Source of the DNA: Magnetospirillum sp. SS-4
GTDB taxonomy: Bacteria; Pseudomonadota; Alphaproteobacteria; Rhodospirillales; Magnetospirillaceae
Assembly (NCBI RefSeq): GCF_902729425.1
Contig: NZ_CACVCH010000013.1
Span: 62,001-126,000 of the forward strand
Direction: 5' to 3'
Length of the DNA stretch: 64,000 nucleotides
The position numbers and the translations under genes were made by a program. Under the pieces are notes generated by a model. The model saw nothing but the letters and a program-made list of their open reading frames with translations, ran no database searches and was not told the DNA's origin. Positions 35,262 to 61,264 of this stretch are shown piece by piece; position 1 is the first letter of the stretch, and every line of letters begins with the position of its first letter.

Positions 35262-35262
35262 C

Positions 35263-36798: not shown

Positions 36799-36801
36799 GG
36801 G

Positions 36802-41078: not shown

Positions 41079-41099
41079 GCGATGTCCCCTGCTTCGCGG

Positions 41100-43813: not shown

Positions 43814-44881
43814 ATGAGCGGCGTACTGTATTCCAACCTTAAATTCCTGCGATTTCGGGATCAGCTCGACGCCCTTGCCACCGGCACCGTGGCCGCACCG
43901 GTCCATATCCGCATCAAGCCTATCAACCATTGCAACCACCACTGCTGGTACTGCGCCTATCGCACCGACGACCTCAAGCTGGGCGAGGACATGGACGAGA
44001 AGGACGTCATCCCCAGGGACAAGATGGTCGAGATCGCAGACGATATCGTCTCCATGGGGGTCAAGGCGGTGACCTTTTCCGGCGGTGGCGAGCCGCTGCT
44101 GTACAAGCCCCTGCCCGAGGTGATCGACCAGCTGGCGGCTGGCGGAGTGCGGGTGGCGACCCTGACCAACGGCTCCAACCTCAAGGGCCGGGTGGCCGAG
44201 GCACTGGCCCGCCACGCCACCTGGGTGCGGGTGTCCATCGACGCCTGGGACGACGAGTCCTATGTCAGATCGAGGGGCGCCAAACCGGGTGAGTTCTCGC
44301 GGCTGATGGACAACATGAAGGCGTTCGTCGCCACCGGCACCAGATGCGTGCTGGGGGTGTCGTTCATCACCGGCAAGGACAATTACCACCGGCTGCACGA
44401 GGTCTGCTCGCGCTTCAAGGATATCGGCGTCAACCATGTCAAGCTGTCGGCCGCCGTGGTCGGCAATTCAGTGGACGAGAACAACCGCTATCACCATGAG
44501 TTCGCCACGGGGGCGCGGGCCGAGATCGACCGGTGCCTGGCCCTGAACGGCGATAGCTTCACGGTGCTGGATCATTTCCACGAGATGGAAAGCCGGTTCG
44601 AGAAGAACTACACCCGCTGTCCGTTCCTTCAGTTCCTGACGGTGATCGGGGCGGACCAGACCGTCTATACCTGCCAGGACAAGGCCTATACCAAGTCGGG
44701 AACGCTGGGCTCGATCAAGAACCGCTCATTCCGCGACTACTGGTTCTCGGAAGAGAACCGTCGCGCCCTGGCCGAATTCGATCCGTCCAGGCTGTGCAAG
44801 CATCACTGCGTGTCCCACGCCAAGAATCTGGCGCTCACGCAATATCTGGCCGTTGATCCGGAACATGGACAATTCGTGTGA
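43814..44881 (+). CDS. Radical SAM protein with SPASM-like C-terminus
   Basis: 355 residues. The [4Fe-4S] motif CNHHCWYC (Cys40, Cys44, Cys47) is the canonical CX3CX2C, followed by the SAM-contact motif VTFSGGGEPLLY. The C-terminal part has further cysteines (CPFLQFLTVIG, YTCQDKAYT, CKHHCVSH) with GTLGSIKNRSFRDYW between them, as in SPASM or twitch domains that bind auxiliary clusters. Substrate unknown; a small peptide or sugar-linked substrate is possible. It is the first gene of a long co-directional cluster. Confidence 0.88.
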   Translation: MSGVLYSNLKFLRFRDQLDALATGTVAAPVHIRIKPINHCNHHCWYCAYRTDDLKLGEDMDEKDVIPRDKMVEIADDIVSMGVKAVTFSGGGEPLLYKPLPEVIDQLAAGGVRVATLTNGSNLKGRVAEALARHATWVRVSIDAWDDESYVRSRGAKPGEFSRLMDNMKAFVATGTRCVLGVSFITGKDNYHRLHEVCSRFKDIGVNHVKLSAAVVGNSVDENNRYHHEFATGARAEIDRCLALNGDSFTVLDHFHEMESRFEKNYTRCPFLQFLTVIGADQTVYTCQDKAYTKSGTLGSIKNRSFRDYWFSEENRRALAEFDPSRLCKHHCVSHAKNLALTQYLAVDPEHGQFV

Positions 44882-44915
44882 TACCCTCCTGTTCCGCCTG
44901 AAGAAAGCCGAGCCG

Positions 44916-47006
44916 ATGTCGAAGCGCGTTTACTTCGCCGATCTGACCCATTGCGGAACAATCACCAATGCCGACACCTTCCCCTATGGGGTCGGTTGTG
45001 TCGCCGCCTATGCCAAAACCATCTTCGGTGACGCGATCGAGCTTGATATCTTCAAGTTCCCCGCCGAGTTGGACGCGGCCATGGCCGGCAATCCGCCCGA
45101 TATCCTGTGCATCACCAATTATGCCTGGAACGCCAACCTCTCCATGACGGTGGCCGACATGGCGCGGGCCGCCCACCCCCACATGACCATCGTCATGGGG
45201 GGGCCGAATATCTGTATCACTCCGGAAGGACGCCGCCGGTTCCTGGAGGAGCATGCCTCCATCGATTTCTACGCAAAATTCGAAGGTGAACGTGCTTTCG
45301 CGGGGCTGTTCAAGACTCTGGTCGAGACCGGCATGGACAAGTCGGCACTGCGTGCCTCCGGCCGGTTGCTGGACAACATGCTCTACCTGACGCCTGATGG
45401 CGCATATGTCGAGGGTCCGGAAAAGCGGATCATGGATTACGCCGAGATGCCGTCCCCCTATCTCATGGGGCTGATGGACAAGTTTTTCGACCAGGAATTG
45501 CGGCCGGTTCTGGAATTCACCCGGGGCTGCCCCTATGCCTGTACCTTCTGCACCGATTCCCATGCCCATCGCAGTAAGGTGGTGCGCAAGCGGCCTGATC
45601 TGGCCCGCGCCGAGATGGAATACGTGGCGGCCCACGTCAAAACCGCCACCGACATGTTGCTGACCGACCTGAATTTCGGTCAGTATCCCGAAGACATCAC
45701 CTTTGCCCATATCATTCGCGACACCATCGATAAATTTGGATGGCCCAAGGCCATGCTGGTAGCCGGTGGCAAGAGCCATGGTGAGCGCGTCATGGAATGC
45801 GTCAAGATCGTCAATGGCAGCGACCTCGGCGTCATCAAGTTCTGCTCGTCGGTCCAGTCCACCGATGACACCGTACTGGACGCCATCAGCCGCAAGAACC
45901 TACCTGTGGACAAGGTGCGCGAGATCATGGACTCGGCCAATGCCGAGGAGGGCTTCACCGAATACTTCACCGAAATCATCCTCGGACTGCCCATGGACAG
46001 TGTCGAGTGCCACTATAACTCGTTGCGCGACACTATCGACAAGGTGGGCATGAACATCGTCAATGTTCACCAGCTGACCCTGCTGCAGGGCTCGCCCATG
46101 GCGCTGCCGGAGCAGCGCCGGCGCTACCAACTGGACCCGCGCTACCGGGTGTTCGTCGGCTGCGTCGGCATGTATCACCTGTTCGGTCAGGATATCGGCA
46201 TCGCCGAAATCGAGGAGGTGGTGGTCTCCAACAGCACCATGACATTCTCTGAATGGCTGGATTGCCGGGTCATGAGCCTGCTGGTGAAGACCTATATCGA
46301 CCGAGATTATTTTGTCGAGGTGTTCGGCCTGATCCGCCGTCTCGGCCTATCATCGGTCGACCTGTTGCGGATCGTCAAGGACGAGACTTTCCCGCGATAT
46401 CCCGGCCTGACTGCCCTGGTCGATGGCTACCTGCACAAAACCCAGGAGCCGTTGCACCCCACCTTGGCCGCCGCACTGGACTATGTCACCCGTCCCGACA
46501 CCATCGCGAAATTCCGCACCGGCGAATTGGGCGGCAACGAATTGCTGTTCTATCGGGTCAAAGCTTATCTGGACCATACCGACGAGTTGCACGATGCTCT
46601 GCGGGATGCGGCCCTGCTGCTGTTGAAGCGTCACGACCTGCTGGACGATGATCTGGCTACCTATCTGGACGAAGCCACCCGCTTCAGTCGGTTGCGCAAG
46701 TTCGATCCCCGCACCTATACCGAGGATCTGTTCGACCGGTTCAGCTATGACTTCCAGGCGGCCAAAGCCAAGGGTTTCAAGGTGATGCCCCGTGAAATCC
46801 AGATCAAGCCCCGCGAGGCCCGGCTCTATTTCACCGACAGCGCCAATGTGGCCATCGACTACGCCATCAGGGCCTGGGTTCGCCCCAAGAGTGATGTCAC
46901 CGAAATCAAACACAACACCGATGCTCAGACCATGTTCGGCTTCGGCAAGCTGTTTCATTACAGCAATCTGAGGGTGCTGTGCCGTTCGCTGGAGTGGGTT
47001 CGCTAG
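44916..47006 (+). CDS. Radical SAM protein with B12-binding-like N-terminal domain
   Basis: 696 residues from the ATG at 44916; an upstream in-frame ATG (44853) overlaps the previous gene and seems less likely. Residues about 1-135 match the B12-binding-like fold (ILCITNYAWNANLSMTVADM, IVMGGPNICITPEGRRRFLE), but no DxHxxG base-off motif is visible. The radical SAM core has RGCPYACTFCTDSH (Cys205, Cys209, Cys212). About 250 residues follow the core with no recognised domain, including an EIQIKPREARLYF segment. Family members do methyl transfer, ring contraction or C-C bond formation. The reaction here is unknown. Confidence 0.85.
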   Translation: MSKRVYFADLTHCGTITNADTFPYGVGCVAAYAKTIFGDAIELDIFKFPAELDAAMAGNPPDILCITNYAWNANLSMTVADMARAAHPHMTIVMGGPNICITPEGRRRFLEEHASIDFYAKFEGERAFAGLFKTLVETGMDKSALRASGRLLDNMLYLTPDGAYVEGPEKRIMDYAEMPSPYLMGLMDKFFDQELRPVLEFTRGCPYACTFCTDSHAHRSKVVRKRPDLARAEMEYVAAHVKTATDMLLTDLNFGQYPEDITFAHIIRDTIDKFGWPKAMLVAGGKSHGERVMECVKIVNGSDLGVIKFCSSVQSTDDTVLDAISRKNLPVDKVREIMDSANAEEGFTEYFTEIILGLPMDSVECHYNSLRDTIDKVGMNIVNVHQLTLLQGSPMALPEQRRRYQLDPRYRVFVGCVGMYHLFGQDIGIAEIEEVVVSNSTMTFSEWLDCRVMSLLVKTYIDRDYFVEVFGLIRRLGLSSVDLLRIVKDETFPRYPGLTALVDGYLHKTQEPLHPTLAAALDYVTRPDTIAKFRTGELGGNELLFYRVKAYLDHTDELHDALRDAALLLLKRHDLLDDDLATYLDEATRFSRLRKFDPRTYTEDLFDRFSYDFQAAKAKGFKVMPREIQIKPREARLYFTDSANVAIDYAIRAWVRPKSDVTEIKHNTDAQTMFGFGKLFHYSNLRVLCRSLEWVR

Positions 47007-47015
47007 GTGCCGGCC

Positions 47016-48206
47016 ATGTTGAAACGGATTCAACACGTCATCGGCAGAGCGTTGGCCAAGACGCTTTCTTATTTGTTCATCCTGCCGGTTCTATATCTGA
47101 TCGAGCCGTTCTGGAGAATTCGCCTGACCCATCTGTGGGTGGCCCGGTTCGGTCCCTTGGCCTACAATACCCATGTGTTCGTCGGCACCCGTATTCTGGA
47201 GGGACCCGAACCGCGCACCACCCGTCTCTTTTTCGGAGCTCGCCCGGCCAATCAGCCGCTATTCACCATGTGGAAGCGCATTCTGCCGATCATCGAAAAC
47301 CCGATCCTGTCGGCTTTTTATCACTATGCCGGCCCCACCTTGTCGAAAACCCGCTTCTTCCGGCCACTGCCCAACAACTATCATGACCACCGCCCCCTCA
47401 ATGTCGGCCCCGTCCTGTCGTTCTCGAAGGCAGAGGAAGAGCGTGGTCAATCATTGCTGAGGGATATGGGCCTGACCCCCGACGATTGGTTCGTGGTCTT
47501 TCAAAGTCGTGACGCCAGTTTTCACGCCCAGACCGGCCTGGGCGACAGTGGAACCCACCGGCTATGCTCCATCGATGGGTTCATGGCTGCGGCCGGGGAA
47601 ATCACCCGGCGCGGCGGCTATGCCATTCGCATCGGGGCCGGCCTCAACACTCCCCTGCCGGAAAACGGTAATTCCCGCATCATCGACTATGCCACCCGGT
47701 TCCGGCGCGACTGGGCCGATATCTACCTTCTTGGAAAGTGCCGTTTTCTTCTGGCTCCCGGCACCGGTACCGTGTTCGTGCCAGGCTTGTTCGGCAGACC
47801 AGTGGCGCAGAGCAACATGCTGCCCTATATCCCCAATCCCATGGGCCGCCACAGCCTGTACACCACCAAATTGCTAAAGGATGCCAGGACAGGCCGGATT
47901 CTGAATTTTGCCGAATTGTACGAGATGGGTGCTTTCAATTTTTTCCATCCTCACGAAGCCATGCTGAGATTTCCGCGGGAACTGGACGAGTATGGCTTGA
48001 TCGCGGTCGACAACGATGAGGAGGAGATCCTGGGACTGTGCCTCGACATGATCGCACAATTGGATGGCAATCCGGTGAATCCGGAGGCGGCAAGACTGCA
48101 ACGCCTGTACAAGACCCAGTTTCTGAACCAAGCCACCGACATTGACCTGATCCCGGATCTAGCGCCAAGCTTTGCCCTGAAATACCGCTATCTGATCGAA
48201 GCCTGA
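47016..48206 (+). CDS. TIGR04372-like putative glycosyltransferase
   Basis: 396 residues from the ATG at 47016, preceded by AGGTG; an in-frame GTG at 47007 is the alternative. A hydrophobic N-terminal stretch (LSYLFILPVLYLIEPFW) suggests membrane association. WFVVFQSRDASFHAQTGLGD, GGYAIRIGAGLNTPLPENGN and RFLLAPGTGTVFVPGLFGRP follow the pattern of TIGR04372 proteins found in surface-glycan clusters: a nucleotide-sugar-binding middle part and a Gly-Thr-rich loop. The assignment rests on remembered motif layout rather than a search. Confidence 0.65.
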   Translation: MLKRIQHVIGRALAKTLSYLFILPVLYLIEPFWRIRLTHLWVARFGPLAYNTHVFVGTRILEGPEPRTTRLFFGARPANQPLFTMWKRILPIIENPILSAFYHYAGPTLSKTRFFRPLPNNYHDHRPLNVGPVLSFSKAEEERGQSLLRDMGLTPDDWFVVFQSRDASFHAQTGLGDSGTHRLCSIDGFMAAAGEITRRGGYAIRIGAGLNTPLPENGNSRIIDYATRFRRDWADIYLLGKCRFLLAPGTGTVFVPGLFGRPVAQSNMLPYIPNPMGRHSLYTTKLLKDARTGRILNFAELYEMGAFNFFHPHEAMLRFPRELDEYGLIAVDNDEEEILGLCLDMIAQLDGNPVNPEAARLQRLYKTQFLNQATDIDLIPDLAPSFALKYRYLIEA

Positions 48207-48208
48207 TC

Positions 48209-49381
48209 ATGGCAACGGACAACCCCGCCGAGATGAACACGACCATGGATCCGAGCAAGGATATTCTCCCCCCCAATATCGTGATGGCGGACAGCTTTTC
48301 ACCATTCAAGCCCAGCCCCCAACGCGGTCTGATGAAATATGTCCGGGCAGGCTTCGGTATCATCAAGCTGGCTCTGATCCGCCGCGCCCTGAACGATGAC
48401 CTTGTCTATGAGCGCTATATCCGCGAGAACCTAGCGCGGCTGTTCGTCGCCAACACCACCATATGCAATGCTCGCTGTGTTTTCTGCCCGCAACAGTTTC
48501 ACGTCGACAAGAAACAGGCGATGCCGTTCGATATCTTCGCCGATGCCATCGAGAACTTCGTGGCTCATGGCGGCCGGTTGGTGACTCTGAACTCCAACAA
48601 TGGCGATCCCCTGGCGGATCCCGGCCTGATCGACAAAATTCGCCATGCACGCAAGGTCGGGTTGCCCGTCCTGAACTTCAGCACCAACGGCATCCTGCTG
48701 AGCCGCGGCACCCTGGTCCAGGACATCGCCGCCCTGGTGGACGAGATCGACATCAGCCTGCCGGGTTTTGACCGCGAGGATTACAAGCGGGTCTACGGCG
48801 TTGACCGGGCCGAGGCGGTGCTGGACGGGCTGATCAAGCTGATCGAGGCCAAACGCGCAGCCAACAGTCCCCTCCGTATCCTGCTGGCGTTGCGCATTGA
48901 TAGGCCGCTGGAAGAGGTAATGGCCGACGAGGGCATGCGCCAACTTAAACCATATCTCGACGATGGCACCGTGGTGATCGATCCCGATCAAATCTACAGC
49001 GAGATGGAGACCTGGTCCGATCAGATCACCGCCGAAAGCCTGCCCGGCATCATGACGTTGCGTACCGACGTGCCGGTCCGGACCCGGCCCTGCAAGCGCA
49101 TGATGAACGATGTCTTCCTGCTGGCCGATGGTCAGGTCCGTATCTGTGCCTGCCGCATCAAGCTCTCCAATTACGATGAACTGGTGATCGGCGACACCCG
49201 CACCCAGCCATTGGCCGACATCGTCCACGGCCCCGCCCATCGGGCCTTGCTGCAGCGGGTCGCGGCGGGGGACTGGCCCGAGGTCTGCCAGGATTGCACC
49301 TTGTATCAGGCCCAGGACTTGCCGCGCCAAACATGGCTGGCCATGGCGTGGGATCTGCTGGGTGGATTATTCCGGCGATGA
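48209..49381 (+). CDS. Radical SAM protein with SPASM-like domain
   Basis: 390 residues. CNARCVFC (Cys86, Cys90, Cys93) is the CX3CX2C cluster motif, and VTLNSNNGDPLADPGL holds a variant of the GGEPL motif (NNGDPL). The C-terminal segment has CKRMMNDVFLLADGQVRICA, IGDTRTQPLADI and VCQDCTLYQ, the pattern of SPASM auxiliary-cluster domains. About 75 residues precede the cluster motif, more than usual. The stop overlaps the ABC transporter start (ATGA). It is the third radical SAM enzyme in the cluster and is not close to either of the other two outside the core. Confidence 0.87.
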   Translation: MATDNPAEMNTTMDPSKDILPPNIVMADSFSPFKPSPQRGLMKYVRAGFGIIKLALIRRALNDDLVYERYIRENLARLFVANTTICNARCVFCPQQFHVDKKQAMPFDIFADAIENFVAHGGRLVTLNSNNGDPLADPGLIDKIRHARKVGLPVLNFSTNGILLSRGTLVQDIAALVDEIDISLPGFDREDYKRVYGVDRAEAVLDGLIKLIEAKRAANSPLRILLALRIDRPLEEVMADEGMRQLKPYLDDGTVVIDPDQIYSEMETWSDQITAESLPGIMTLRTDVPVRTRPCKRMMNDVFLLADGQVRICACRIKLSNYDELVIGDTRTQPLADIVHGPAHRALLQRVAAGDWPEVCQDCTLYQAQDLPRQTWLAMAWDLLGGLFRR

Positions 49382-51189
49382 TTACCCTTCTGCGCCAGGC
49401 CTTTTCCATGATGAGGCCGGCATTGCGCTGGCGGTGGGGCATGATCGTTGCCTCCGCCCTGGTGGGGGCCGCCCTGGAAACCGTCGGCACCGGCGCCGTG
49501 TTCGGCGTCATCACTGTCATCGCCGATCCCAGCCAGATCCATCGCATACCAATGATCGGTGACACCCTGTCGGCTCTTGCCGCCCGCAATCCCGCTCAGG
49601 CACCGCTGATCATCGGCATTGGCGTCATCATCTTCTTCATCGCCAAGAACCTGTTCATGTTCACCCATTCCTACTGGGCCGAACGGACATGCATGGACAG
49701 CGTCGTCGCCGGTGCCGGCCAATTGCTGAAGGGCTATCTTCGCGCCCCGTTCCAGCTCTATTTTCAGCGCAATCCCGCCGAACTGACCCGCAATCTGTCG
49801 CGCACCATCGATGATGTGTTTGGCGGCGTGGTGCGATCCACCGTAGGATTAGTGGCGGAGGGTTTCGTCCTGCTGGCCCTGCTGGCGGTCCTGCTCGTGG
49901 CGCAGCCGGCAGCGACCGCCATTGCCGCCCTCACCATCGGCACTTCCATGATCCTGGTATCCGCCATCTCCAAACGGGTGCTGATCACCCGTGGCCGCCG
50001 GGTCCAGGCCCTGGCCACTCAGATTCTTCAAGGTGCCCAGGAAGCCATCGGCGCCGCCAAGGACATCCGCATCCTGGGTCGGGAGGATTTCTTCTGGTCA
50101 CGGTTTATCGGACGGCGGCGTGAAAGCGCCGACCTCCAGCGCCTGACCCTGGCGCTGCTGGAAATGCCGCGTCTTGCGCTTGAAACTGCCATGGTCATCG
50201 GATTGGTGAACGTTGCCCTGGTTCTCGCCATGCAAGGAGAATCCGCCTCGGTGGTCCCGACTCTGGGGCTGTTCGGCTATGTGGGGTTCCGAATCCTGCC
50301 CTCGGTAACCCGCCTGCTGAGCCACGTCGGTCATATCCGCCAGTTCAGCGGCGCCGTCGAGGTGATCTGGGCGGATTATTCCGCCCTGTGCGCTCCTGAT
50401 CTCCATGCGCAACCGGATGAGCCGCCGATGCCGTTCGAGCGGGAATTGCGTCTGTCCGGCATCAGCTACGCCTATCCGGGAGGGCGCGGCACCGTCCTGG
50501 ATGCTATCGATCTGGTGGTACCGGTGCATGCCTCCATCGGCATTGTCGGGTCATCGGGTGCCGGGAAGAGTACCTTGGTGGACATCATCCTGGGATTATT
50601 GGCCCCTAGTTCGGGGCAGGTGCTGGTGGACGAAAAGGATATCGCCGGCCATATGCGCAGCTGGCAACGCCGCATCGGCTATGTCCCCCAGAGCATCTAC
50701 CTGACCGATGATTCACTGCGCAACAACATCGCCTTCGGCATTCCCATCGAATCCATCAACGAGGAGCGTCTGCGCGAGGCCGCCGCCATGGCCAGCGTCC
50801 TGGAGTTCATCGAATCGCTGCCGGAGGGGTTCGACACCATGGTCGGAGACCGAGGCCTCCTGCTGTCGGGCGGACAGCGCCAGCGCATCGGCATTGCCCG
50901 TGCGCTGTACCATCAGCCCGAATTGCTGATCTTCGACGAGGCTACCTCGGCGCTGGACAGCGAGACCGAACGCGAGGTCGCCACCGCCATCGATTCCCTG
51001 GCCGGATGCAAGACAGTAATCATGGTCGCCCACCGCCTAACCACCTTGACTCGCTGCGACAGCCTTGTATTTCTAAAGCAAGGTCGACTCGCCGCCACCG
51101 GGACCATGGCCGAACTGATCGAGCGGGACGAGGATTTTCGCCGCCTGGCGGCAAGCTCGGGCGTCTTGCATTCCCACACAGGAGCCTGA
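49378..51189 (+). CDS. ABC transporter, fused permease and ATPase, PglK-like flippase
   Basis: 603 residues: six TM helices in the first 330 residues, then one ATPase domain. Walker A GIVGSSGAGKSTLVDIILG (about 390), Q-loop VPQSIYLTDDSLRNNIAFG, signature LLSGGQRQRIGIARAL (about 496), Walker B LLIFDEATSALDS (about 519), and AHRLTTL as the switch His. The SSGAGKST loop and DDSLRNNIAFG are characteristic of PglK/MsbA-like half-transporters in glycan loci, which flip lipid-linked oligosaccharides. It is translationally coupled to the radical SAM gene before it. Confidence 0.9.
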   Translation: MITLLRQAFSMMRPALRWRWGMIVASALVGAALETVGTGAVFGVITVIADPSQIHRIPMIGDTLSALAARNPAQAPLIIGIGVIIFFIAKNLFMFTHSYWAERTCMDSVVAGAGQLLKGYLRAPFQLYFQRNPAELTRNLSRTIDDVFGGVVRSTVGLVAEGFVLLALLAVLLVAQPAATAIAALTIGTSMILVSAISKRVLITRGRRVQALATQILQGAQEAIGAAKDIRILGREDFFWSRFIGRRRESADLQRLTLALLEMPRLALETAMVIGLVNVALVLAMQGESASVVPTLGLFGYVGFRILPSVTRLLSHVGHIRQFSGAVEVIWADYSALCAPDLHAQPDEPPMPFERELRLSGISYAYPGGRGTVLDAIDLVVPVHASIGIVGSSGAGKSTLVDIILGLLAPSSGQVLVDEKDIAGHMRSWQRRIGYVPQSIYLTDDSLRNNIAFGIPIESINEERLREAAAMASVLEFIESLPEGFDTMVGDRGLLLSGGQRQRIGIARALYHQPELLIFDEATSALDSETEREVATAIDSLAGCKTVIMVAHRLTTLTRCDSLVFLKQGRLAATGTMAELIERDEDFRRLAASSGVLHSHTGA

Positions 51190-51194
51190 GGGGC

Positions 51195-51860
51195 ATGGGC
51201 CAGGAAATCGACTTCCTCGGACGCTTCCACAACGCCACCAAGCGCGATTACGTGCAGCGGGTGGTCGAACACGACAAGGCGGAATGCGCCGCCATCGCCA
51301 AGCAATGGGGCTTTGACTATTGGGACGGCGACCGCAGTCACGGCTTCGGCGGCATGCGGTATGACGGCCGCTGGCTGCCACTGGCCGAGGACATGGTCAA
51401 GCATTACGGCCTGAAGGCGGGAGATAAAGTTCTCGACATCGGCTGTGGCAAGGCCTTCCTACTGTACGAGCTCACCCGCGCCTGCGCCGGGCTGGAGGTG
51501 GCCGGGCTGGATATCTCGCAATACGGCATCGACAATGCCAAGGAGGAGGTGCGTCCATTCCTCCATCAGGGCAACGCCACCAGCCTGCCTTGGCCCGATG
51601 CCAGCTTTGACTTGGTGATATCCATCAACACCTTCCATAACCTCCAGGTTCACGAGCTGGACCAAGCGTTGCGGGAGATGCAGCGGGTCAGCAAGGACAA
51701 GGCCTATCTGTGCGTCGAAAGTTATCGTAGCGAATGCGAGAAGGCCAATCTGCTGTACTGGCAGCTCACCTGTGAAAGCTTTCACCGGCCGGAAGGCTGG
51801 CGTTTCTTGTTCGACATGGCCGGATATACCGGCGATTGGGGATTTATCACCTTCGCATGA
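51195..51860 (+). CDS. SAM-dependent methyltransferase (Methyltransf_11-like)
   Basis: 221 residues. Motif I is VLDIGCGKAFLLYELTRACA, the acidic ribose contact is in GLDISQYGIDNAKEEV, and motif IV is DLVISINTFHNLQVHELDQA. The C-terminus (TCESFHRPEGWRFLFDMAGY) is distinctive. The start follows GAGGGG a few bases downstream of the flippase stop, and the stop overlaps the reductase start (ATGA). It probably methylates a sugar or lipid intermediate of the cluster product. Confidence 0.85.
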   Translation: MGQEIDFLGRFHNATKRDYVQRVVEHDKAECAAIAKQWGFDYWDGDRSHGFGGMRYDGRWLPLAEDMVKHYGLKAGDKVLDIGCGKAFLLYELTRACAGLEVAGLDISQYGIDNAKEEVRPFLHQGNATSLPWPDASFDLVISINTFHNLQVHELDQALREMQRVSKDKAYLCVESYRSECEKANLLYWQLTCESFHRPEGWRFLFDMAGYTGDWGFITFA

Positions 51861-52735
51861 GCAAGCTTGTCATCCTCGGCGCCTCCAGCTCGGTGGGCCG
51901 CCACCTGTGGAACCACCTCGGCCCCGAGCGTGCCATCGGTACCTATCGCGCCAATCCGATTGCCGGCGGACGGCCCTTCGACTCGGTCACGCAACGCGCG
52001 ACCGATATCCTTCGCCCTGGCGAGGCCAGTCATGCCGCCATCCTGCTGGCCGATCCACAGCCTGATTCCTGTATCAAGGACCCGGAGGCATCGCGGCGCC
52101 TCAATGTCACCGCCATGACCCGGCTGTGTCAGGACCTGTGGGCACTGGGCATTACCCCCATCTTCGCTTCCACCGAATTCGTGTTCGATGGTGCCGGGGG
52201 TGAGTATACCGAGGAGGATGAGGCCCGGCCGATCCTGCTCTACGGACGGCAGAAGAAGGAAGTGGAGGATTTCCTGGCCTGCTCCGGTCGACCCCATGTC
52301 ATCCTGCGCTTCGCCAAGGTGTATGGCGACCGCCCCGGCGATGGCACCATCTTCACCGTCTGGGCCGCCCAATTGCTGTCCGGAACCCGGACCATGCGCT
52401 GCGCCTCCGACCAGGCATTTTCACCGGTATTCGTCGGTGATGTCGGCGATGCCATCGTCCGGGCGGCGGAACGGAACCTGGCCGGCCTGTTCCACCTGTC
52501 GGGCAATCATCGCTTCAATCGGCTGGAATTGCTGGAGATGACGATAGCGGCCATCCGCCGTCGCCGGCCGCTGGATCTTGAGATCCAGCCCTGCTCCATC
52601 GACGACTTTAACCTGCCCGAACCCCGTCCCAAGGATGTGTCCATGCGCTCGGACAAGCTGGCGGCGGCGGCCGGCCTGGTATTTGCCGATACCGAAGCCA
52701 AGGTCGATCGCATCGTGGCGGACACGCTGGGATGA
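51857..52735 (+). CDS. RmlD-like sugar-nucleotide reductase/epimerase
   Basis: A 292-residue extended SDR. The N-terminal LVILGASSSVGRHLWNHLG binds NAD(P), FASTEFVFDGAGGEYTEED and YGRQKKEVEDFL hold the Thr and YxxxK catalytic residues, and FAKVYGDRPGDGTIFTVWAA and FSPVFVGDVGDAIVRAAE match the dTDP-4-dehydrorhamnose reductase fold. The nucleotide-binding glycine pattern is GASSSVG rather than GxxGxxG, as in RmlD. It is coupled at both ends to its neighbours. Confidence 0.8.
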   Translation: MSKLVILGASSSVGRHLWNHLGPERAIGTYRANPIAGGRPFDSVTQRATDILRPGEASHAAILLADPQPDSCIKDPEASRRLNVTAMTRLCQDLWALGITPIFASTEFVFDGAGGEYTEEDEARPILLYGRQKKEVEDFLACSGRPHVILRFAKVYGDRPGDGTIFTVWAAQLLSGTRTMRCASDQAFSPVFVGDVGDAIVRAAERNLAGLFHLSGNHRFNRLELLEMTIAAIRRRRPLDLEIQPCSIDDFNLPEPRPKDVSMRSDKLAAAAGLVFADTEAKVDRIVADTLG

Positions 52736-53967
52736 AATTGAAGCCACTGCTATTCCTGGCTGTGATCTGGGGGGGGCTGTTCGCCTTGGTCGAGGCCGGC
52801 AGTTGGATGGTGTTGAAGGTGGCCAATGCCCGTCACCCAAGCGACAATCCCCTGGTTACCGAGTATCTGGCCCGCGGCCATCCCCTGTTCGTCGACAATG
52901 AGGATTTGCGGATTCAAAGTCAGGAATTCTTCTATCACCCTTTCCTCGGCTATGAGCAGGCGCGCAACCACGTCACCATCAGACCCAGCCCGGAATACAC
53001 CGGACATATCGGCGTAGATGCGGCGGGATTTGTCCATACCGGTGATCCTGAACGTAATCCCAAGCGACTGGCCGAGCCGAAGGGGCGTTCTTACCGCGTG
53101 GTTTTCCTTGGTGGTTCGACCATGTTCGGACTAGGGTCGTCCCGCAACCAAACCACCATTCCCGCCTATTTTGAGGCCCTGCTGCATCAGGCTTGGCCGG
53201 GAGTGGAGTTCCTGGTTCTGAATGCCGGGGTCCAGGGCTATCAGAGCACCCAGGAGCGGGTCGCCTACGAGCTTTACCTGGACGGGCTGGAGCCCGACCT
53301 GGTGATCGCCCTGGATGGCACCAACGACGCCATGTTCCCAGCCGATCTAGCGGTGTGGAAGCCCTATTTCAGCACCACCTCGCTGGTGGATAATGCCCGC
53401 TTCGTCAGCCTGCACAAACCCTCGGTCAATCTGGCCAGCACCATCCAGGCCCTGATTACGTTTCCCGAACCTCTGGCCTCGCTGGCCCTGTTGCGTCGGG
53501 TGATCAGCCGTCTACCGGGAGGGCCGCAACCACGCCACGACCAGCCCGGCATCTATCATCCAGAAGCGGCGGTTCAACTGCACGGCAATCTCAAATCATT
53601 AGCCCGTCAATTGACGAGCGACCACCGCCTGGGTCTGTTCGTACTTCAGCCCTATCTTGGCCATGCTAAGCCCAACCTGACCGAAGGCGAACGCGCCATC
53701 GTCGACGGCTATGGCGGTCGGATCGAAGTCTTCAACCGTCACTTCTCAGATTTTGCAGCCCTGTACCATGATCTTGATCAACACTTCTCCGGCTCAGGAC
53801 TACTATTCATCGATCTGCGAACAGTATTTTCCGACACACCGAATCTGATCTATCACAGTCTTGCCCATTATAATGATACCGGCAATAAAATGCTTGCCGA
53901 TGTCATGTTCACCCGAGTCCAGGCAGATATGGCGGCGGATCTCGGGACAAAAGGATTGCTGCCATGA
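52732..53967 (+). CDS. SGNH/GDSL-hydrolase-like exported protein (copy 1)
   Basis: 411 residues with an N-terminal TM helix (LLFLAVIWGGLFALVEAGSW). All SGNH blocks are visible: block I VVFLGGSTMFGLGSSRNQ (Ser about 128), the Gly/Asn region NAGVQGYQSTQERVAYELYL, block III ALDGTNDAMF (Asn about 197), and a C-terminal His in LAHYNDTGNKMLAD. It is an exported acyl-ester hydrolase or transferase, probably acting on the cluster glycan. The stop overlaps a tandem paralogue. Confidence 0.8.
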   Translation: MKLKPLLFLAVIWGGLFALVEAGSWMVLKVANARHPSDNPLVTEYLARGHPLFVDNEDLRIQSQEFFYHPFLGYEQARNHVTIRPSPEYTGHIGVDAAGFVHTGDPERNPKRLAEPKGRSYRVVFLGGSTMFGLGSSRNQTTIPAYFEALLHQAWPGVEFLVLNAGVQGYQSTQERVAYELYLDGLEPDLVIALDGTNDAMFPADLAVWKPYFSTTSLVDNARFVSLHKPSVNLASTIQALITFPEPLASLALLRRVISRLPGGPQPRHDQPGIYHPEAAVQLHGNLKSLARQLTSDHRLGLFVLQPYLGHAKPNLTEGERAIVDGYGGRIEVFNRHFSDFAALYHDLDQHFSGSGLLFIDLRTVFSDTPNLIYHSLAHYNDTGNKMLADVMFTRVQADMAADLGTKGLLP

Positions 53968-55205
53968 CCGCTTGGCTCAAGGGCTGGCGGTTGATCGCCG
54001 GCATGCTCCTGCTGGCCTTCGTTTTGGAGGCGGGATCATGGGCAGCGCTTCGGTTCTGGTTCATGCTGCGCCCCACCGACAATCCTAGAGTTGTCGAATA
54101 CATGCGGCGCGGCCATCCGCTTCTGACCGACAACGAGGATCTTCGTGCCGCTGAAATCGGCATCCAGCTCGATGGTTATCTTGGGTATCGCCTGCTCCCC
54201 AGCTACGTCTCACCACGTGTCAACCGGCAGTATGTCAGCATTATCGAAACCGATGCGGCCGGCTTCGTGCATAACGGTGACCGTGATGCCAACCCCCGCC
54301 TTCTGGCTGATCCGAAGGCAAAAATCTATCGGATACTGGTTCTCGGCTGTTCAGCGGTGTATGGCGCAGCCAATACTACCAATGCCGCCACCTTGCCGGC
54401 ACGGCTGGAGGCACGGCTGAAAGCGCGTTGGCCGCAGGTTCCGTTTCAGGTTATTAATGCTGGAGTCCTCGGCTATCAATCAACACAAGAACGCCTGTCC
54501 TATGAACTCTATCTCCGCGAGCTGAAGCCGAGCGCGGCGATCGATGTCACCGGCAATTGCGACGCCAAATACAGCGCCCAATTGCCGGTCTTCATCCCCC
54601 ATTGGTCGGCGAGCCTGCCTCTGACCAGTGAGAGCTATCTTGATTATTTCCGCCCTGAACCATCGGCTCGTATCTTTGTATCTAATCTGATCCAGTTCCC
54701 CGAGCCCCTCTACAGCCTAGCCGTCCTCCACCGAATCATTGCTCGTTTTGGCGGCGGCACTACTTATACCACCGCCACCGCTTATTATTACCATCCCGAG
54801 GCGGCGCAGCAGTTCACACGCAACATGGAAGGACTGTCGCGGGATTTCATCGCCGACGACGTGCTTGGCCTGTTTGCCCTGCAGCCCCATCTCGGTGGCA
54901 AGAAAGCCGAACTGGGCTCCCGTGAGCGCGAGGTCTTGGCCGAAAATAAGGAGTGGGCCGATGCTCTCCAGCGGCATCAACTCGATCTGGCCGGCGCGTT
55001 CCAGACCCTGGCGAAGCGCCATGCCGGGCAACGCCTGCGCTTCATCGACTTCTCCGATGCCTTCGATGGCGTGAACGAACAGACCTTCGAAACCTTCACC
55101 CATCCCAACGATCTTGGCAGCGATCTACTGGCCCAGAGGATTGAGGAGCGATTCGGGGCGGCACTGCAGACGGACCTGATCGCCAGGGGCTGGTTGCGCC
55201 CATGA
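53964..55205 (+). CDS. SGNH/GDSL-hydrolase-like exported protein (copy 2, diverged)
   Basis: 413 residues, clearly paralogous to the preceding protein. They share NP-x-V-x-EY-x-x-RGHPL-x-x-DNEDLR, NAG-x-x-GYQSTQER and YHPEAA in the same order. Block I reads LVLGCSAVYGAANTTN (Ser kept), but block III reads DVTGNCDAKY, so the conserved GTND of copy 1 has become GNCD and the oxyanion-hole Asn is displaced. The C-terminal THPNDLGSDLLAQ keeps the His. Catalysis may be weakened or changed. The gene body around 54.2-55.0 kb is visibly lower in GC than flanking core genes. Both ends overlap neighbours. Confidence 0.78.
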   Translation: MTAWLKGWRLIAGMLLLAFVLEAGSWAALRFWFMLRPTDNPRVVEYMRRGHPLLTDNEDLRAAEIGIQLDGYLGYRLLPSYVSPRVNRQYVSIIETDAAGFVHNGDRDANPRLLADPKAKIYRILVLGCSAVYGAANTTNAATLPARLEARLKARWPQVPFQVINAGVLGYQSTQERLSYELYLRELKPSAAIDVTGNCDAKYSAQLPVFIPHWSASLPLTSESYLDYFRPEPSARIFVSNLIQFPEPLYSLAVLHRIIARFGGGTTYTTATAYYYHPEAAQQFTRNMEGLSRDFIADDVLGLFALQPHLGGKKAELGSREREVLAENKEWADALQRHQLDLAGAFQTLAKRHAGQRLRFIDFSDAFDGVNEQTFETFTHPNDLGSDLLAQRIEERFGAALQTDLIARGWLRP

Positions 55206-57091
55206 GCGGGTTCGTCGCCCTGATTATGGCAGCCTCCAGCCTGGGCTGGGGGGCTTTGGCGCTGCGTCTGGCAGGGGGCTTTGGTGGTCTGGCATGGCGC
55301 GAACGGATGGCATGGTCATTCGGACTCGGCATGGGCGTGCTGGGATGGCTTGGCTTTTTCGCCGCCCTGTCCGGTCATCCCGATCCGATATTCTTCACCC
55401 TGATCGTCGCGGCCGGCCTGCCGGGACTGTATTGGCTGCACCAGTCCGATATATCGCCGGAACCTTTCACCCTCTGGACTTGGATGATGCTGGCCCTCGG
55501 CACCGTCGTGCTGGCGGGCGACCTGATCGAGGGGCTGGCTCCGCCGACCGATGCCGACAGTCTGGCCTATCACTTCGCCATTCCACGCCGGATTTTGCAG
55601 GATCACCATCTGATCTTCGTGCCGCGTGCCGCCGATGGCGCCATACCGCTACTGCAACAGATGACCTATCTTGCCGCCCTGGCCCTGGGGGGTGAGCAGG
55701 CCATGACACTGTGGTGCGGCCTGTCCGGCTGGGCGGCCGTTCTGTTGACCTATGCCACCGCGCGCCGGCACCTGTCACGCGACTGGTCCTTAACCGCCGC
55801 GCTGGCCGTGGCCACCCTGCCTGCCTTCCTTTATGGTGCCGGATCAGGACAGGTGGAGACGCGGATGGCCACCTTCGTCACCATCGCCGTCATCGCCGTC
55901 ATGGATTGTCGTCGGCAGGGTGGATTGGGACTGGCGGTAATTGCCGGATTGGCTGTCGGCTTTTCCATGGCCAGCAAGTATCCTGGCCTGCTGGTGGCCT
56001 TGCTGTGCGGCCTGGCCCTGCTCGCCCAGCGTGGCGGATTGGTCCGGGCAAGTGTCCTGACCGTGGTCGCCTGCACCGCAGGATTGCAGTGGTATGCCTG
56101 GAACTGGTGGAATATCGGCGATCCCGTTTTTCCCATGCTCTACGGCATCATTCCCTATCCCGCCGACGCCCCTTGGAATGCCCTCCAGAATGCCGCCTTC
56201 AAGGAATGGGCCACCGAAGTGGAATCCCCGATGTCTCGGGGAATATTGGATATCCTGGTCTATCCGCTACGGGTGACCTTCCTGCCTCCCGCTGCATTGG
56301 ATTCCGGACGGACCGGCCTGGGCGTGTTGCCGATACTACTGCTGCCCTTCGCCATGGCCGGGGCCTGGAGGAACCGGAACCATTCTATCGTCCGCAACTG
56401 GCTAGTCGCTGCCTTCATCTGTTTGGGATTCTACCTGCTGTGGTCGGTGTTCGGAGCATCGCAAAGAATTCGGCACTATCTGCCGTTCATGCCACTGGTC
56501 ATCGTCGGCTTGCTGGCCGCCGCCCTCCAAACCAAGAGTCGCCTTCCCCTGATGGTGGCGGTGGCAGCCACCTTGCTGCTGCAATCGGTCGCACAGCTTA
56601 TGTTTGTTCGCAATGCCGCCGCTCATATCCTATCCCGGGAATCCAGGATGGAATATCTGGAACGCAATGTCGGCCTCGCCTTCGCCGTCACCTGGGCCAA
56701 TGCAAATCTGCCGGACACGGCCAAGATCATGATTAATGCCCGACAATGGCTCTACCTGCTGGATCGGCCAACATTGTTCGTGACCAAGGTACAAGCTGCG
56801 GAGGTCGAAGTTCGACCCGACAATGCCGACGTTTCCATCTTCTGGCGGCAGATGCGGAGGCATGAAATCACCCACGCCATCTTGCCCAATGCCGATCTCT
56901 CCTTGCGCACCTCCGACCAAGATCCTCTCTACCTCCTGATGGCCGGTGTGGTCGCCACCGGCTGCGGCCGGATCGTCGAGACTCTGACCGGTCCCGACGC
57001 GGTGATAAGCCGGACCATGGGAAACCGCGGTGACCGCATGGTTCATGTGCCGGTAGTCGAGCTGGTTCCCACCGGCTGCCCACTGGAGTGA
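55202..57091 (+). CDS. Polytopic GT-C-like membrane glycosyltransferase
   Basis: 629 residues with roughly ten or more TM helices in the first 470 and a soluble C-terminal domain of about 150. GLAPPTDADSLAYHFAIPRR provides an acidic D-x-D-type motif in the first extracytoplasmic loop, the usual catalytic site of GT-C enzymes (ArnT, PMT, Alg families) that use polyprenyl-phosphate sugars. ASKYPGLLVALLCGLALLAQ and IRHYLPFMPLVIVGLLAAAL are TM helices. It is coupled to the SGNH pair. Acceptor and donor are unknown. Confidence 0.72.
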   Translation: MSGFVALIMAASSLGWGALALRLAGGFGGLAWRERMAWSFGLGMGVLGWLGFFAALSGHPDPIFFTLIVAAGLPGLYWLHQSDISPEPFTLWTWMMLALGTVVLAGDLIEGLAPPTDADSLAYHFAIPRRILQDHHLIFVPRAADGAIPLLQQMTYLAALALGGEQAMTLWCGLSGWAAVLLTYATARRHLSRDWSLTAALAVATLPAFLYGAGSGQVETRMATFVTIAVIAVMDCRRQGGLGLAVIAGLAVGFSMASKYPGLLVALLCGLALLAQRGGLVRASVLTVVACTAGLQWYAWNWWNIGDPVFPMLYGIIPYPADAPWNALQNAAFKEWATEVESPMSRGILDILVYPLRVTFLPPAALDSGRTGLGVLPILLLPFAMAGAWRNRNHSIVRNWLVAAFICLGFYLLWSVFGASQRIRHYLPFMPLVIVGLLAAALQTKSRLPLMVAVAATLLLQSVAQLMFVRNAAAHILSRESRMEYLERNVGLAFAVTWANANLPDTAKIMINARQWLYLLDRPTLFVTKVQAAEVEVRPDNADVSIFWRQMRRHEITHAILPNADLSLRTSDQDPLYLLMAGVVATGCGRIVETLTGPDAVISRTMGNRGDRMVHVPVVELVPTGCPLE

Positions 57092-57186
57092 CCCCCGCCA
57101 AGATGGACAAAATCGCCCGGTTGGGGCACTCTCCCGCCACCCCCTGCCACTCCATGGTGCGACCCGCCCCTTAGCAAGGATAGCCG

Positions 57187-57741
57187 ATGCCCGCTTCCGC
57201 CTCTTTCGTTGCGCTGAACGATCCGGAGACCTGCTGGAAGGATCTCAACGCCAAGTCGACCGGCTATTTCGCCAAGCGTCAGCAGATCTGCCTGACCCGC
57301 GACGTGGTTGAGGAGATCAAGCGCTCCGCCCTGGAAACCGGCGTCAATTGCCGGCTGTCGCTGCACACCTCGCCGGAAGAAGAATTCCACGAGATGATCA
57401 TCTTCCAGCACCGCGACCAGTATTACCGGCCAAAGAAGCATATCCGCCCAAAATCATTCCATATGATCGAAGGCGAGATGGCGGTATTCGTGTTCAATGA
57501 TGACGGGAGCGTGATCGATGCCCAGATCGTCAATACAACCACCAACCTGATCTACCGGGTCGGGGCCAACCTTTTCCATACCGACGTGCCGCTGACTCCT
57601 TATGTAGTGCACCATGAAAGCACCTTGGGGCCATTTCTCGGTAAGTCTGATCACACCTTCGCCCCCTTCTCGCCGCCCGCCGACGACAAGGAGGCCTATC
57701 TCAAGTTCCGCGACGGGCTGTTGAAGCTGGTCGGACGCTGA
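57187..57741 (+). CDS. WbuC-like cupin metalloprotein
   Basis: 184 residues, ATG at 57187 after AAGGA. SLHTSPEEEFHEMIIFQHR and HIRPKSFHMIEGEMAVFVFN carry the His and Glu ligands of a cupin barrel, and FHTDVPLTPYVVHHES closes it. The arrangement resembles WbuC, a small cupin found in O-antigen clusters. Family role is unclear; isomerase, lyase or epimerase activity on a sugar is possible. A 95-nt gap separates it from the GT-C gene. I saw no promoter or terminator there, so read-through is likely. Confidence 0.75.
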   Translation: MPASASFVALNDPETCWKDLNAKSTGYFAKRQQICLTRDVVEEIKRSALETGVNCRLSLHTSPEEEFHEMIIFQHRDQYYRPKKHIRPKSFHMIEGEMAVFVFNDDGSVIDAQIVNTTTNLIYRVGANLFHTDVPLTPYVVHHESTLGPFLGKSDHTFAPFSPPADDKEAYLKFRDGLLKLVGR

Positions 57742-57760
57742 TATTCAGGAGTTCCATGGC

Positions 57761-58888
57761 ATGAAGAAGGCATTGGTCATCGGCGGCGGCTTCGCCGGCC
57801 TCAGCGCCGCCCATCTGCTGTCACTACAGGGCGGTTGGGACATCACCATCGTGGAGAACGGTCCCTGGCTGGGTGGCGGCTGCAAGACCCTGTGGTATGG
57901 CGGCCACCCCTATACCTTCGGGCCACGCCACTTCCTGACCCAGAATGTGCCGGTATTCGACTATCTGAACAAGTATTGTCCACTGCGCCGCTGTAACGAT
58001 CACGTCTTCCTGACCTATGTGGAGAAGGACGCCCAGTTCTATAACTACCCCATCCACATCGACGACGTCGCCCGCATGCCGGAAAAGACGCAGATCGAGA
58101 CGGAACTGGCCGAGGCCAAGCAGATCAACGGCGCCGGCGCCGCCAAGGATTTCGAGGAATACTGGCTGGCCTCCATCGGCCGCACCCTCTATGATAAATT
58201 CGTCAACACCTACTCCAAGAAGATGTGGATGTTGGATGACAACAAGGTAATGGATGACTTCTCGTGGTCGCCCAAGGGCGTTGCCCTGAAGACCGGCCCG
58301 CGTCAGGCCTGGGATACCGCCATTTCCGCCTATCCCATTGCTCCCAACGGCTATGACGGCTATTTCGACATCGCCTCCACCGCCGATAACGTCACGGTGC
58401 TGCGGACCGATATCGAAAAATACGATCTGCCCAACAAGACGGTGGTGATCGACGGCGAGAGGCGGACCTATGACGCCATCGTCAATACCGCCTCTCCCGA
58501 CGTAGTGATGTACAACGAGTTCGGCGAGTTGCCCTATATCGGCCGCGACTTCATCAAGTTCGTGCTGCCCATCGCGCACGCTTTTCCCAAGGACGTCTAC
58601 TTCCTGTACTACGCCAGCAACGAGCCCTTTACCCGGCTGGTGGAGTACAAGCAGTTCACCCGTGTCAATTACGACTCCGATTCCACCATCATCGGCATGG
58701 AAATCCCGTCCAAGAATGGACGCTATTACCCGGTGCCGCTGAAGTCCGAATATGAACGCGCCCAGAAGTATTTCGACGCCATGGGCGAGAACGTGTTCTC
58801 CATCGGCCGAGCCGGCAGCTATCAGTACCGCGTCGACGTGGATGATTGCATCGCCCAGGCCATGGACGCGGTTGCCAAGCTGAAATAA
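57761..58888 (+). CDS. UDP-galactopyranose-mutase-like flavoprotein
   Basis: 375 residues. The FAD motif is ALVIGGGFAGLSAAHLLSLQ, followed by IVENGPWLGGGCKTLWYGG. GPRHFLTQNVPVFDYLN corresponds to the GPHIFHT segment of UDP-galactopyranose mutase, QFYNYPIHIDDV to its F-x-L-P-I-N loop, and VNTYSKKMWMLDDNK to the Y-T-x-K-x-W substrate segment. Several active-site positions differ from canonical Glf, so the substrate may not be UDP-Galp. It begins 20 nt after the cupin gene and 37 nt before the aminotransferase gene. Confidence 0.78.
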   Translation: MKKALVIGGGFAGLSAAHLLSLQGGWDITIVENGPWLGGGCKTLWYGGHPYTFGPRHFLTQNVPVFDYLNKYCPLRRCNDHVFLTYVEKDAQFYNYPIHIDDVARMPEKTQIETELAEAKQINGAGAAKDFEEYWLASIGRTLYDKFVNTYSKKMWMLDDNKVMDDFSWSPKGVALKTGPRQAWDTAISAYPIAPNGYDGYFDIASTADNVTVLRTDIEKYDLPNKTVVIDGERRTYDAIVNTASPDVVMYNEFGELPYIGRDFIKFVLPIAHAFPKDVYFLYYASNEPFTRLVEYKQFTRVNYDSDSTIIGMEIPSKNGRYYPVPLKSEYERAQKYFDAMGENVFSIGRAGSYQYRVDVDDCIAQAMDAVAKLK

Positions 58889-58925
58889 CCCAACCTCCCG
58901 GTCCCCTGATCACGAGAAGACAGAC

Positions 58926-60233
58926 ATGAGCCATATTCTCAAGAAATTCCCCAAGGACCCACCTGGTCCGGTTGTCACCAAGGCCGAGGGCGTCTACCTC
59001 CACACCGATGATGGGCGCAAGCTGCTGGACACCACCGGCGGCTGGACCTCGTGCGCGGCGCTTGGCTACTCGCACCCGGTGGTGCTGGAGGCCATGCGTG
59101 AGCAGATGTCCAAGTTCACCCATGTGGACTACAACATCTTCACCAATCCCATGCTGGAAGAACTGGCCGAGTTGCTGCTCTCCCAGGCGCCCAAGGGCAT
59201 GAACCGGGTCTACTTCGCCGGCAATGGCGGTTCGGAGGCCATGGAAGGGGCGCTGAAGCTGAGCTACCAGCTCCATTACGACGCCGGTAAGCGCGACAAG
59301 CAGTGGTATATCGGCCGCGACCAGTCGTTCTACGGCTCGACCATGCATTGCGCCGTGGTGTCCGAGTTGCCGGTGCTGAAGATGTACGAGCCGCTGCTGC
59401 CGATCCAGCGGGCGCTGGTGCCACAGCACAACCCCTACCTCAACATGCTGCCGGGCGAGAGCCTGGACGACTACGCCCGCCGCGGCGCCAAGGACCTGGA
59501 AGACAAGATCCTCGAGATCGGCGCCCACAGGGTTGCCGGCTTCGTCGGTGAAACCCAGTTGGGCTCGCTGGTTGGCGACGTACCGGCCGCGCCCGGTTAC
59601 TGGAAGTATATCCGCGAGGTCTGCGACCGCCACGACGTCCATCTCATCCTGGACGAAATCTATTGCGGCCTGGGCCGCAGCGGCAAGATCTACAACATCT
59701 CCAATGACGACGTGACGCCCGACTTCATCGTCATCGGCAAGAATCTGGGGGCCGGCCATGCCCCCATCAGCGCGGTGATCACCGACAATCGCCTGGAATC
59801 GGTGGTGTTGGGGCCGCACGGTTCGGGTCGCCTCAACCAGGGGCACACCCACCAAGGCTATTCCCTGGGTGCGGCGGCGGCGCTGGCGGTGCAGAAGATC
59901 GTTCACAGCCCGGAGATGCTCGCCCATATCAACAGCCTGGGCGCCCATATGCGCGGCCGGCTGGAAAGTGAGCTGGGCAACCATCCGTTCTTCCGCAACG
60001 TGCGTGGTCGCGGCCTGCTGTTCTCGATCGAGTACGATTGCAAGGACAAGAATGTGTTCGGCCTGACCTTGGCGAAAAACCTGAATGAGAAGCACTGCGT
60101 GCTGATCAATTCCAAGTGGCACCGGGTGTCGTTCACCCCGGCCTATATCCTGAGCCGCGAGCAGGCCGATTTCGTCCTGGACGGCTTTGTCGCCGAATTC
60201 AAGGCCATCGCCGAAACCTGGCCTCGGGATTAG
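58926..60233 (+). CDS. Class III PLP-dependent aminotransferase
   Basis: 435 residues. GVYLHTDDGRKLLDTTGGWT and CAALGYSHPVVLEAMREQM start the fold, VYFAGNGGSEAMEGALKL binds the PLP phosphate, LILDEIYCGLGRSGKIYN has the cofactor Asp, and FIVIGKNLGAGHAPISAVI has the Schiff-base Lys. Near the C-terminus are RNVRGRGLLFSIEYD and KNLNEKHCVLINSK. The family handles omega-amino acids, ornithine, glutamate-1-semialdehyde and some sugar-type substrates. In a glycan cluster it may introduce an amino group into an unusual sugar or its substituent. It is the last gene before a strong hairpin. Confidence 0.85.
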   Translation: MSHILKKFPKDPPGPVVTKAEGVYLHTDDGRKLLDTTGGWTSCAALGYSHPVVLEAMREQMSKFTHVDYNIFTNPMLEELAELLLSQAPKGMNRVYFAGNGGSEAMEGALKLSYQLHYDAGKRDKQWYIGRDQSFYGSTMHCAVVSELPVLKMYEPLLPIQRALVPQHNPYLNMLPGESLDDYARRGAKDLEDKILEIGAHRVAGFVGETQLGSLVGDVPAAPGYWKYIREVCDRHDVHLILDEIYCGLGRSGKIYNISNDDVTPDFIVIGKNLGAGHAPISAVITDNRLESVVLGPHGSGRLNQGHTHQGYSLGAAAALAVQKIVHSPEMLAHINSLGAHMRGRLESELGNHPFFRNVRGRGLLFSIEYDCKDKNVFGLTLAKNLNEKHCVLINSKWHRVSFTPAYILSREQADFVLDGFVAEFKAIAETWPRD

Positions 60234-61187: not shown

Positions 61188-61264
61188 GATTTCTCCTTGC
61201 ACGGAACATCGGACTTGGGTAGCCCATCCTGGGCTGGGCGGTCAATAATCCTGGCGAATCGATC

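Follow-up and report, generated by a model that had tools for sequence, protein, structure and literature searches.

The window analyzed here is a 64,000-nt stretch of contig C18 in the 4.53-Mb genome of Magnetospirillum sp. SS-4. Thirteen genes (g01–g13) occupy positions 43814–60233. All are on the plus strand and form open frames with GC3 > GC2; the coding-type GC3 and the presence of conserved relatives rule out a mis-called set of open reading frames. Five of the twelve junctions, namely, g04/g05, g06/g07, g07/g08, g08/g09 and g09/g10, are 4-nt overlaps. The remaining junctions are gaps of 2–95 nt, and the g02/g03 gap is reduced to 0 nt if g03 starts at GTG 47007. The GC content is 0.602 in the cluster versus 0.688 in the remainder of the window. 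The first-pass annotation of this DNA had described co-directional genes with 4-nt overlaps and a composition less GC-biased than the flanks, and all three features are present. A scan for promoters and terminators gave no useful signal (3 promoter-like sites versus 6.2 expected and 18 terminator-like sites versus 11.8 expected). The methyltransferase gene g00 (Methyltransf_24; 42767–43723, plus strand) is co-directional and ends 90 nt before g01; it may perhaps not belong to the block. Farther upstream, the minus strand at 34287–42710 encodes an MBOAT-like membrane protein (recognized by eye), a Gfo/Idh-type dehydrogenase and a protein whose match to TIGR04326 stays under the cut-off, which suggests that glycan genes begin upstream of the block.

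Three genes of the block encode radical SAM proteins, and the CxxxCxxC motif is present in all three translations. The cut-off of the radical SAM profile PF04055 (29.5 bits) is exceeded by g01 (rSAM1, 355 aa; 43814–44881), with 82.2 bits, and by g04 (rSAM2; 48209–49381), with 43.8 bits. In the B12-binding protein g02 (44916–47006), the radical SAM part scores 25.8 bits alone and 29.8 bits together with its neighbours in frame. A full SPASM set comprises about seven cysteines. The C-terminus of g01 scores 21.6 bits against SPASM (PF13186), marginal to the cut-off of 21.5. In an alignment of 15 sequences, from which L049 was left out, this region has four invariant cysteines and is more like a Twitch domain. 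The SPASM score of g04 is 36.7 bits, and a comparison of g04 with solved structures gave no match at E 0.05. The AlphaFold model of g01 has a pLDDT of 84.5, with residues 40–54, the loop that carries the cluster motif, poorly modelled. The closest solved fold to this model is DesII (E = 9.9e-17, TM 0.55–0.63), followed by SuiB and SkfB and, at rank 13, by BlsE. BlsE, MoaA and DesII are also among the matches in a sequence search, although weakly. The substrates of DesII and BlsE are nucleotide-linked sugars. Against the DesII model TIGR04426, g01 scores 39.4 bits, below the cut-off of 450; the likeness to DesII is thus confined to the fold of the predicted model. The best NCBIfam match of g01 is a tungsten-enzyme maturase model, at 78.7 bits far under the cut-off of 380. 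g02 matches TokK (3e-44) and CysS (1e-26) and aligns with the TokK/CysS/KedN5 C-methylases across residues ~55–408; its score against the KedN5 family NF033712 is 130 bits, below the cut-off of 700. The hopanoid enzymes HpnJ and HpnR are weak matches to g02.

The other genes of the block are all on the plus strand as well. g03 (47016, or GTG 47007, to 48206) is a glycosyltransferase of the TIGR04372 family (135 bits, cut-off 45). g05 (49378–51189) is an ABC exporter of the MsbA/PglK/HepA type and a probable flippase, with 260 bits against the PglK model NF050066, below its cut-off of 1000. It is followed by the SAM-dependent methyltransferase g06 (51195–51860) and by g07 (51857–52735), an SDR with an RmlD domain, which lies over the Pfam cut-off (PF04321, 115 bits) and below that of the RmlD model TIGR01214 (122 bits, cut-off 224). 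Both g08 (52732–53967) and g09 (53964–55205) have an N-terminal hydrophobic stretch; the former is an SGNH/GDSL protein (42.3 bits, cut-off 32.9) and the latter is weakly NonGDSL-like (26.1 bits, cut-off 80). g10 (55202–57091) is a PMT_2-type GT-C membrane glycosyltransferase (PF13231, 30.8 bits, cut-off 26.1) and g11 (57187–57741) a WbuC-family cupin (TIGR04366, 73.6 bits, cut-off 42). g12 (57761–58888) is a flavoprotein like UDP-galactopyranose mutase; its residues 5–372 align with 3hdq, and its score against TIGR00031 is 82.3 bits, below the cut-off of 303.75. The block ends with the class III aminotransferase g13 (58926–60233). The next two genes, on the minus strand, encode an NAD-dependent epimerase/dehydratase (g14, 60288–61202) and a GNAT-type acetyltransferase (g15, 61265–61804). 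The profile matches agree with the gene families that had been named from the letters, with g09 being only a weak NonGDSL match and the SPASM match of g01 marginal.

Glycan-type genes extend beyond the block on both sides. The earlier view that radical SAM enzymes are here part of a locus for a surface glycan is supported. The interval between the window and the cassette described below encodes an SDR of the GDP-mannose-dehydratase type, a fused nucleotidyltransferase/HAD protein and a GHMP kinase, which we take to be a GDP-heptose-like set, as well as a C-methyltransferase, a GT2, an O-antigen-ligase-type (Wzy_C) protein and an acyltransferase. Overall, the DNA resembles an O-antigen-type region, of which the block would be a variable part. 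The same interval contains a further pair of radical SAM genes at C18:128987–131498 (L022:2987–5498), next to sugar-nucleotide genes; a B12 domain is encoded by one of the pair.

Comparison with relatives shows how the block is put together. In genome G040, homologues of g01, the ABC exporter, g06 and g07 (84%, 45%, 85% and 69% identity) are found at C30:768–772 kb. Homologues of WbuC and Glf (90% and 91%) and then of the class III aminotransferase, epimerase and GNAT protein (63%, 58% and 64%) follow at 824–833 kb, in the gene order of the window and with other genes between Glf and the aminotransferase; the g14 homologue is thus beside those of g13 and g15. The two groups are ~52 kb apart, indicating that the thirteen genes join at least two modules, and g11–g15 look like a separate second module. 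Homologues of g05 (45–47%) lie between those of g01 and g06 in G040, G048 and G049. A different arrangement is found in Paramagnetospirillum caucaseum SO-1 (probably G034), of the same genus as SS-4, where one run contains an SDR, an HldE-like gene, another SDR, an APH kinase, transketolase halves, g01 (75%), a methyltransferase-like gene (41%), g04 (47%), g03 (49%), g06 (72%), an RmlD-type gene (32%), a B12 radical SAM gene of a PhpK-like group and WbuC, with two genes of no assigned family within the run. Thus, two SPASM-type and one B12 radical SAM enzymes recur together, the B12 family being different. The set of three radical SAM families is repeated loosely in this species, with homologues of g01 and g04 and a B12 gene from outside the g02 family. 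In NORP116 (L157/L085), a single stretch combines g01, the methyltransferase, a g02-like gene (33%), the class III aminotransferase (55%), WbuC and TIGR04372.

Around many g01 relatives the same neighbourhood recurs: a GalE-like SDR, an HldE-like fusion, a second SDR, a 203-aa protein, an APH kinase and a transketolase split in two genes, then g01 and the g06 methyltransferase. Members of TIGR04324 (2OG-Fe oxygenase) and TIGR04323 are often present in these cassettes; in that of L065 they score 295 and 170 bits, respectively, both above cut-off. In the HldE-like fusion of L065 and in its homologue in our genome, the RfaE transferase domain comes first and the PfkB kinase domain second, and the scores against HldE (NF008454) are 161 and 188 bits, respectively, below the cut-off of 521. 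By sequence alone, the 203-aa protein has only a weak link to phosphatases (phosphoserine phosphatase, E 0.068). The version from L104, however, is modelled as a HAD fold (pLDDT 93.4), and nearly all of its best 50 structural matches bear the names of HAD hydrolases, phosphatases or related enzymes; heptose-bisphosphate phosphatase ranks 40th. DFDNT, SHK and DDL residues are invariant in 13 relatives. A 523-aa frame of G034 (L064:12714–14282) belongs to the APH kinase group and has, in addition, a match to the SS-4 region for the HAD phosphatase; the two enzymes may be fused there.

In the SS-4 genome, the SDRs, HldE-like protein, phosphatase, APH kinase and transketolase halves are encoded at C18:145798–152726 on the opposite strand, beginning 19.8 kb past the end of the window; the closest homologues, those of G040 and G048, have 73–93% identity. 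g01 and g06 go with this nucleotide-sugar cassette, which lies mostly outside the window. TIGR04323 and TIGR04324 have no matches in our genome or in G034, whereas the same searches find both in G039, G040 and G048. These two genomes, SS-4 and P. caucaseum, are also those in which homologues of g04 and g03 separate g01 from the methyltransferase. The coincidence proves nothing, because it amounts to two cases and G043, G046 and G049 have g01 and likewise lack TIGR04324.

We searched 297 genomes of the order for g01 relatives at E 1e-60 or better and found them in 36, including our own; the best matches in the other 35 have 54–86% identity. g06 (at least 54% identity) is present in 31 of these 36 genomes versus 22 of the 261 others (Fisher 1e-22, in a test that ignores relatedness), and the HldE-like gene in 30 versus 37 (Fisher 6e-17, with the same disregard of relatedness). 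The association extends outside the genus, with g06 found in 20 and the HldE-like gene in 19 of 25 g01 genomes. Five of the 36 g01 genomes are devoid of the methyltransferase and six of the HldE-like gene. Matches to TIGR04324 exceed the cut-off in 15 of the 36, versus nine of the 261 others. The distance between g01 and g06 is below 7 kb in 25 of the 31 genomes having both, our own included. In the other 24 of these, 25 g01–methyltransferase pairs were measured; 18 of them are separated by no more than 53 nt, including one whose methyltransferase has 46% identity. In G043, G077, G080, G098, G111 and G114, the two genes are at least 41 kb apart or on separate contigs. Since 22 of the 297 genomes have the methyltransferase but not g01, g01 would be an optional extra step. 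In each of 16 such regions that we inspected, two or more further genes of the cassette type are present with an identity of 28% or higher; in one region, L202, gene calling missed the methyltransferase. g04 is rare, being found in three of the 297 genomes, all with g01 and, in G031, on another contig. For g02, the family (55 genomes) and plasmids were searched, and nothing homologous exceeded 35% identity.

In named genomes, 242 g01 relatives were confirmed, of which the best 80 were kept. Among these best 80 loci, 64 contain one or more members of a set of ten cassette genes, and 53 contain three or more; the methyltransferase is present in 49 and a transketolase half in 45. The remaining 16 carry no cassette gene, ten of them in stretches of at least 12 kb. 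At least three cassette genes were found, within the same best 80, in 26 of 36 loci from Alphaproteobacteria, 10 of 15 from Magnetococcales, four of five from Chlorobi, three of six from Betaproteobacteria, two of five from Elusimicrobia and the one locus from Kiritimatiellia, but not in the single Methylococcales or the single Nitrospinaceae locus. The phylum labels are those of the sequence-record names, and many of the loci are MAGs. The named loci overlap with the genomes of the order (e.g., L102 and G034), so that the two sets are not independent. Genes in relatives were called by a GC-frame script covering frames of at least 70–80 aa, which misplaces starts and misses genes; g01 itself is uncalled in four of the 80 loci. 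The idea that g01 generally has a DegT aminotransferase as its partner was rejected, since DegT genes (six in total) lie within two genes of g01 in just five of 76 loci. The corresponding neighbour group does not consist of radical SAM proteins, because its scanned member is DegT by Pfam and the group is without CxxxCxxC. The SS-4 genome has 16 DegT matches, none on the contig of the window. In several relatives, a PhpK-like B12 radical SAM gene follows methyltransferase and RmlD-type genes (L080:5330–7204).

Taken together, the data are consistent with a variable O-antigen-type part in which g01 and g06 tailor the product of a nucleotide-sugar pathway and g11–g15 supply a second residue, a reading to which we give an even chance. 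What the analysis shows are the gene families, their joint occurrence and the folds predicted for g01 and the phosphatase, whereas every substrate, the order of the reactions and the nucleotide are inferred. A transketolase, a C1 kinase, a phosphatase, a nucleotidyltransferase and SDRs together make a set similar in logic to heptose and octose activation, and for this reason we propose an NDP-activated, probably ADP-activated, higher-carbon sugar. The dedicated split transketolase would make a ketose phosphate, the HldE-like fusion would phosphorylate C1, the HAD phosphatase would remove the other phosphate and the RfaE-like domain would attach the nucleotide, with the two SDRs catalyzing epimerization or oxidation. 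g01 might then act on the sugar nucleotide by radical chemistry, through a rearrangement, deoxygenation or deamination, after which g06 would methylate the sugar and g07 reduce a keto group. g02 could add a C-methyl group to the cassette sugar or to a neighbouring building block. Sugar transfer would fall to g03 and g10, flipping of the lipid-linked glycan to g05, and g08 and g09 may act on the glycan at the membrane; the second residue from g11–g15 would probably be an amino-sugar. The more specific proposal is tentative, and we consider it rather doubtful in its full form: that the cassette makes a nucleotide-activated sugar of at least seven carbons via the split transketolase, that a DesII-like g01 removes or moves a group before methylation by g06, and that chemistry of the antibiotic type is thus used for surface polysaccharides in several phyla.

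Three other explanations have to be weighed. The first-pass annotation had taken the thirteen genes as one pathway around three radical SAM enzymes, which would successively modify a single glycan or carrier-linked molecule before flipping and transfer. The co-directional order with its five 4-nt overlaps, the P. caucaseum run with two SPASM-type and one B12 radical SAM genes and the gene content of the NORP116 stretch speak for such a pathway. Nevertheless, we regard it as unlikely, given that most of the g01 cassette is elsewhere on the contig, that the homologues of g01, g05, g06 and g07 and those of g11–g15 form distant groups in G040, that the B12 family varies between species, that g04 is rare and that g02 lacks homologues above 35% in the family genomes and plasmids searched.

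It is even less probable that g01 modifies a peptide or protein, as in RiPP biosynthesis or flagellin modification, and that the sugar genes reflect glycoprotein assembly. SuiB, SkfB and anSME are indeed among the top folds for g01, the first two above BlsE, and the tungsten-enzyme maturase is its best NCBIfam match; the recurring partners of g01 in several phyla, however, are sugar-phosphate, nucleotide-sugar and methyltransferase genes. Among the genes called, all of at least 70–80 aa, no conserved short gene for a precursor peptide stood out. The idea that the radical SAM enzymes modify lipids, either the carrier or those of the lipid A/hopanoid-like kind, with the sugar genes as bystanders, appears very improbable. 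The weak HpnJ and HpnR matches of g02 point in this direction, but TokK, CysS and KedN5-type enzymes are its best matches and the ten cassette families include no lipid-type gene. The tailoring of a nucleotide sugar within an O-antigen-type region is the reading we prefer.

The protein families of the block and the cassette are already known, and several described systems are close to parts of them. The ADP-heptose pathway consists of GmhA, HldE, GmhB and HldD, and the octose logic of lincosamides is a related comparison. Both share with the cassette the kinase–nucleotidyltransferase fusion, the HAD phosphatase and the SDRs, whereas the cassette differs in the reversed domain order of its HldE-like protein and in the added split transketolase and APH kinase. 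The sporadic carbohydrate cluster of NCBIfam (TIGR04323/TIGR04324) is similar in that both families are part of the cassettes of relatives; it is named by models whose names carry no function, and both families are absent from SS-4 and P. caucaseum SO-1. DesI and DesII deoxygenate a nucleotide sugar in the desosamine pathway. The fold of g01 and its occasional DegT neighbours recall this pair, but g01 is under the DesII cut-off and the aminotransferase on the contig of the window, g13, is of class III rather than DegT. The B12 radical SAM C-methylases TokK, CysS and KedN5 serve the formation of antibiotics; g02 aligns with them, yet reaches 130 of 700 bits and is located in a glycan locus. The open-licence PubMed Central literature, where absence is not absence in print, yielded no paper on this gene set and no described product, in line with the earlier statement that no characterized pathway has it. 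If our reading is right, a widespread nucleotide-sugar pathway gets a defined gene list (SDRs, HldE-like protein, HAD phosphatase, APH kinase, split transketolase, methyltransferase and an optional radical SAM enzyme), which would make rebuilding in vitro possible, and radical SAM sugar chemistry would be extended from antibiotics to surface polysaccharides. Across its 4.5 Mb, the SS-4 genome (G000) has 45 radical SAM domain matches.
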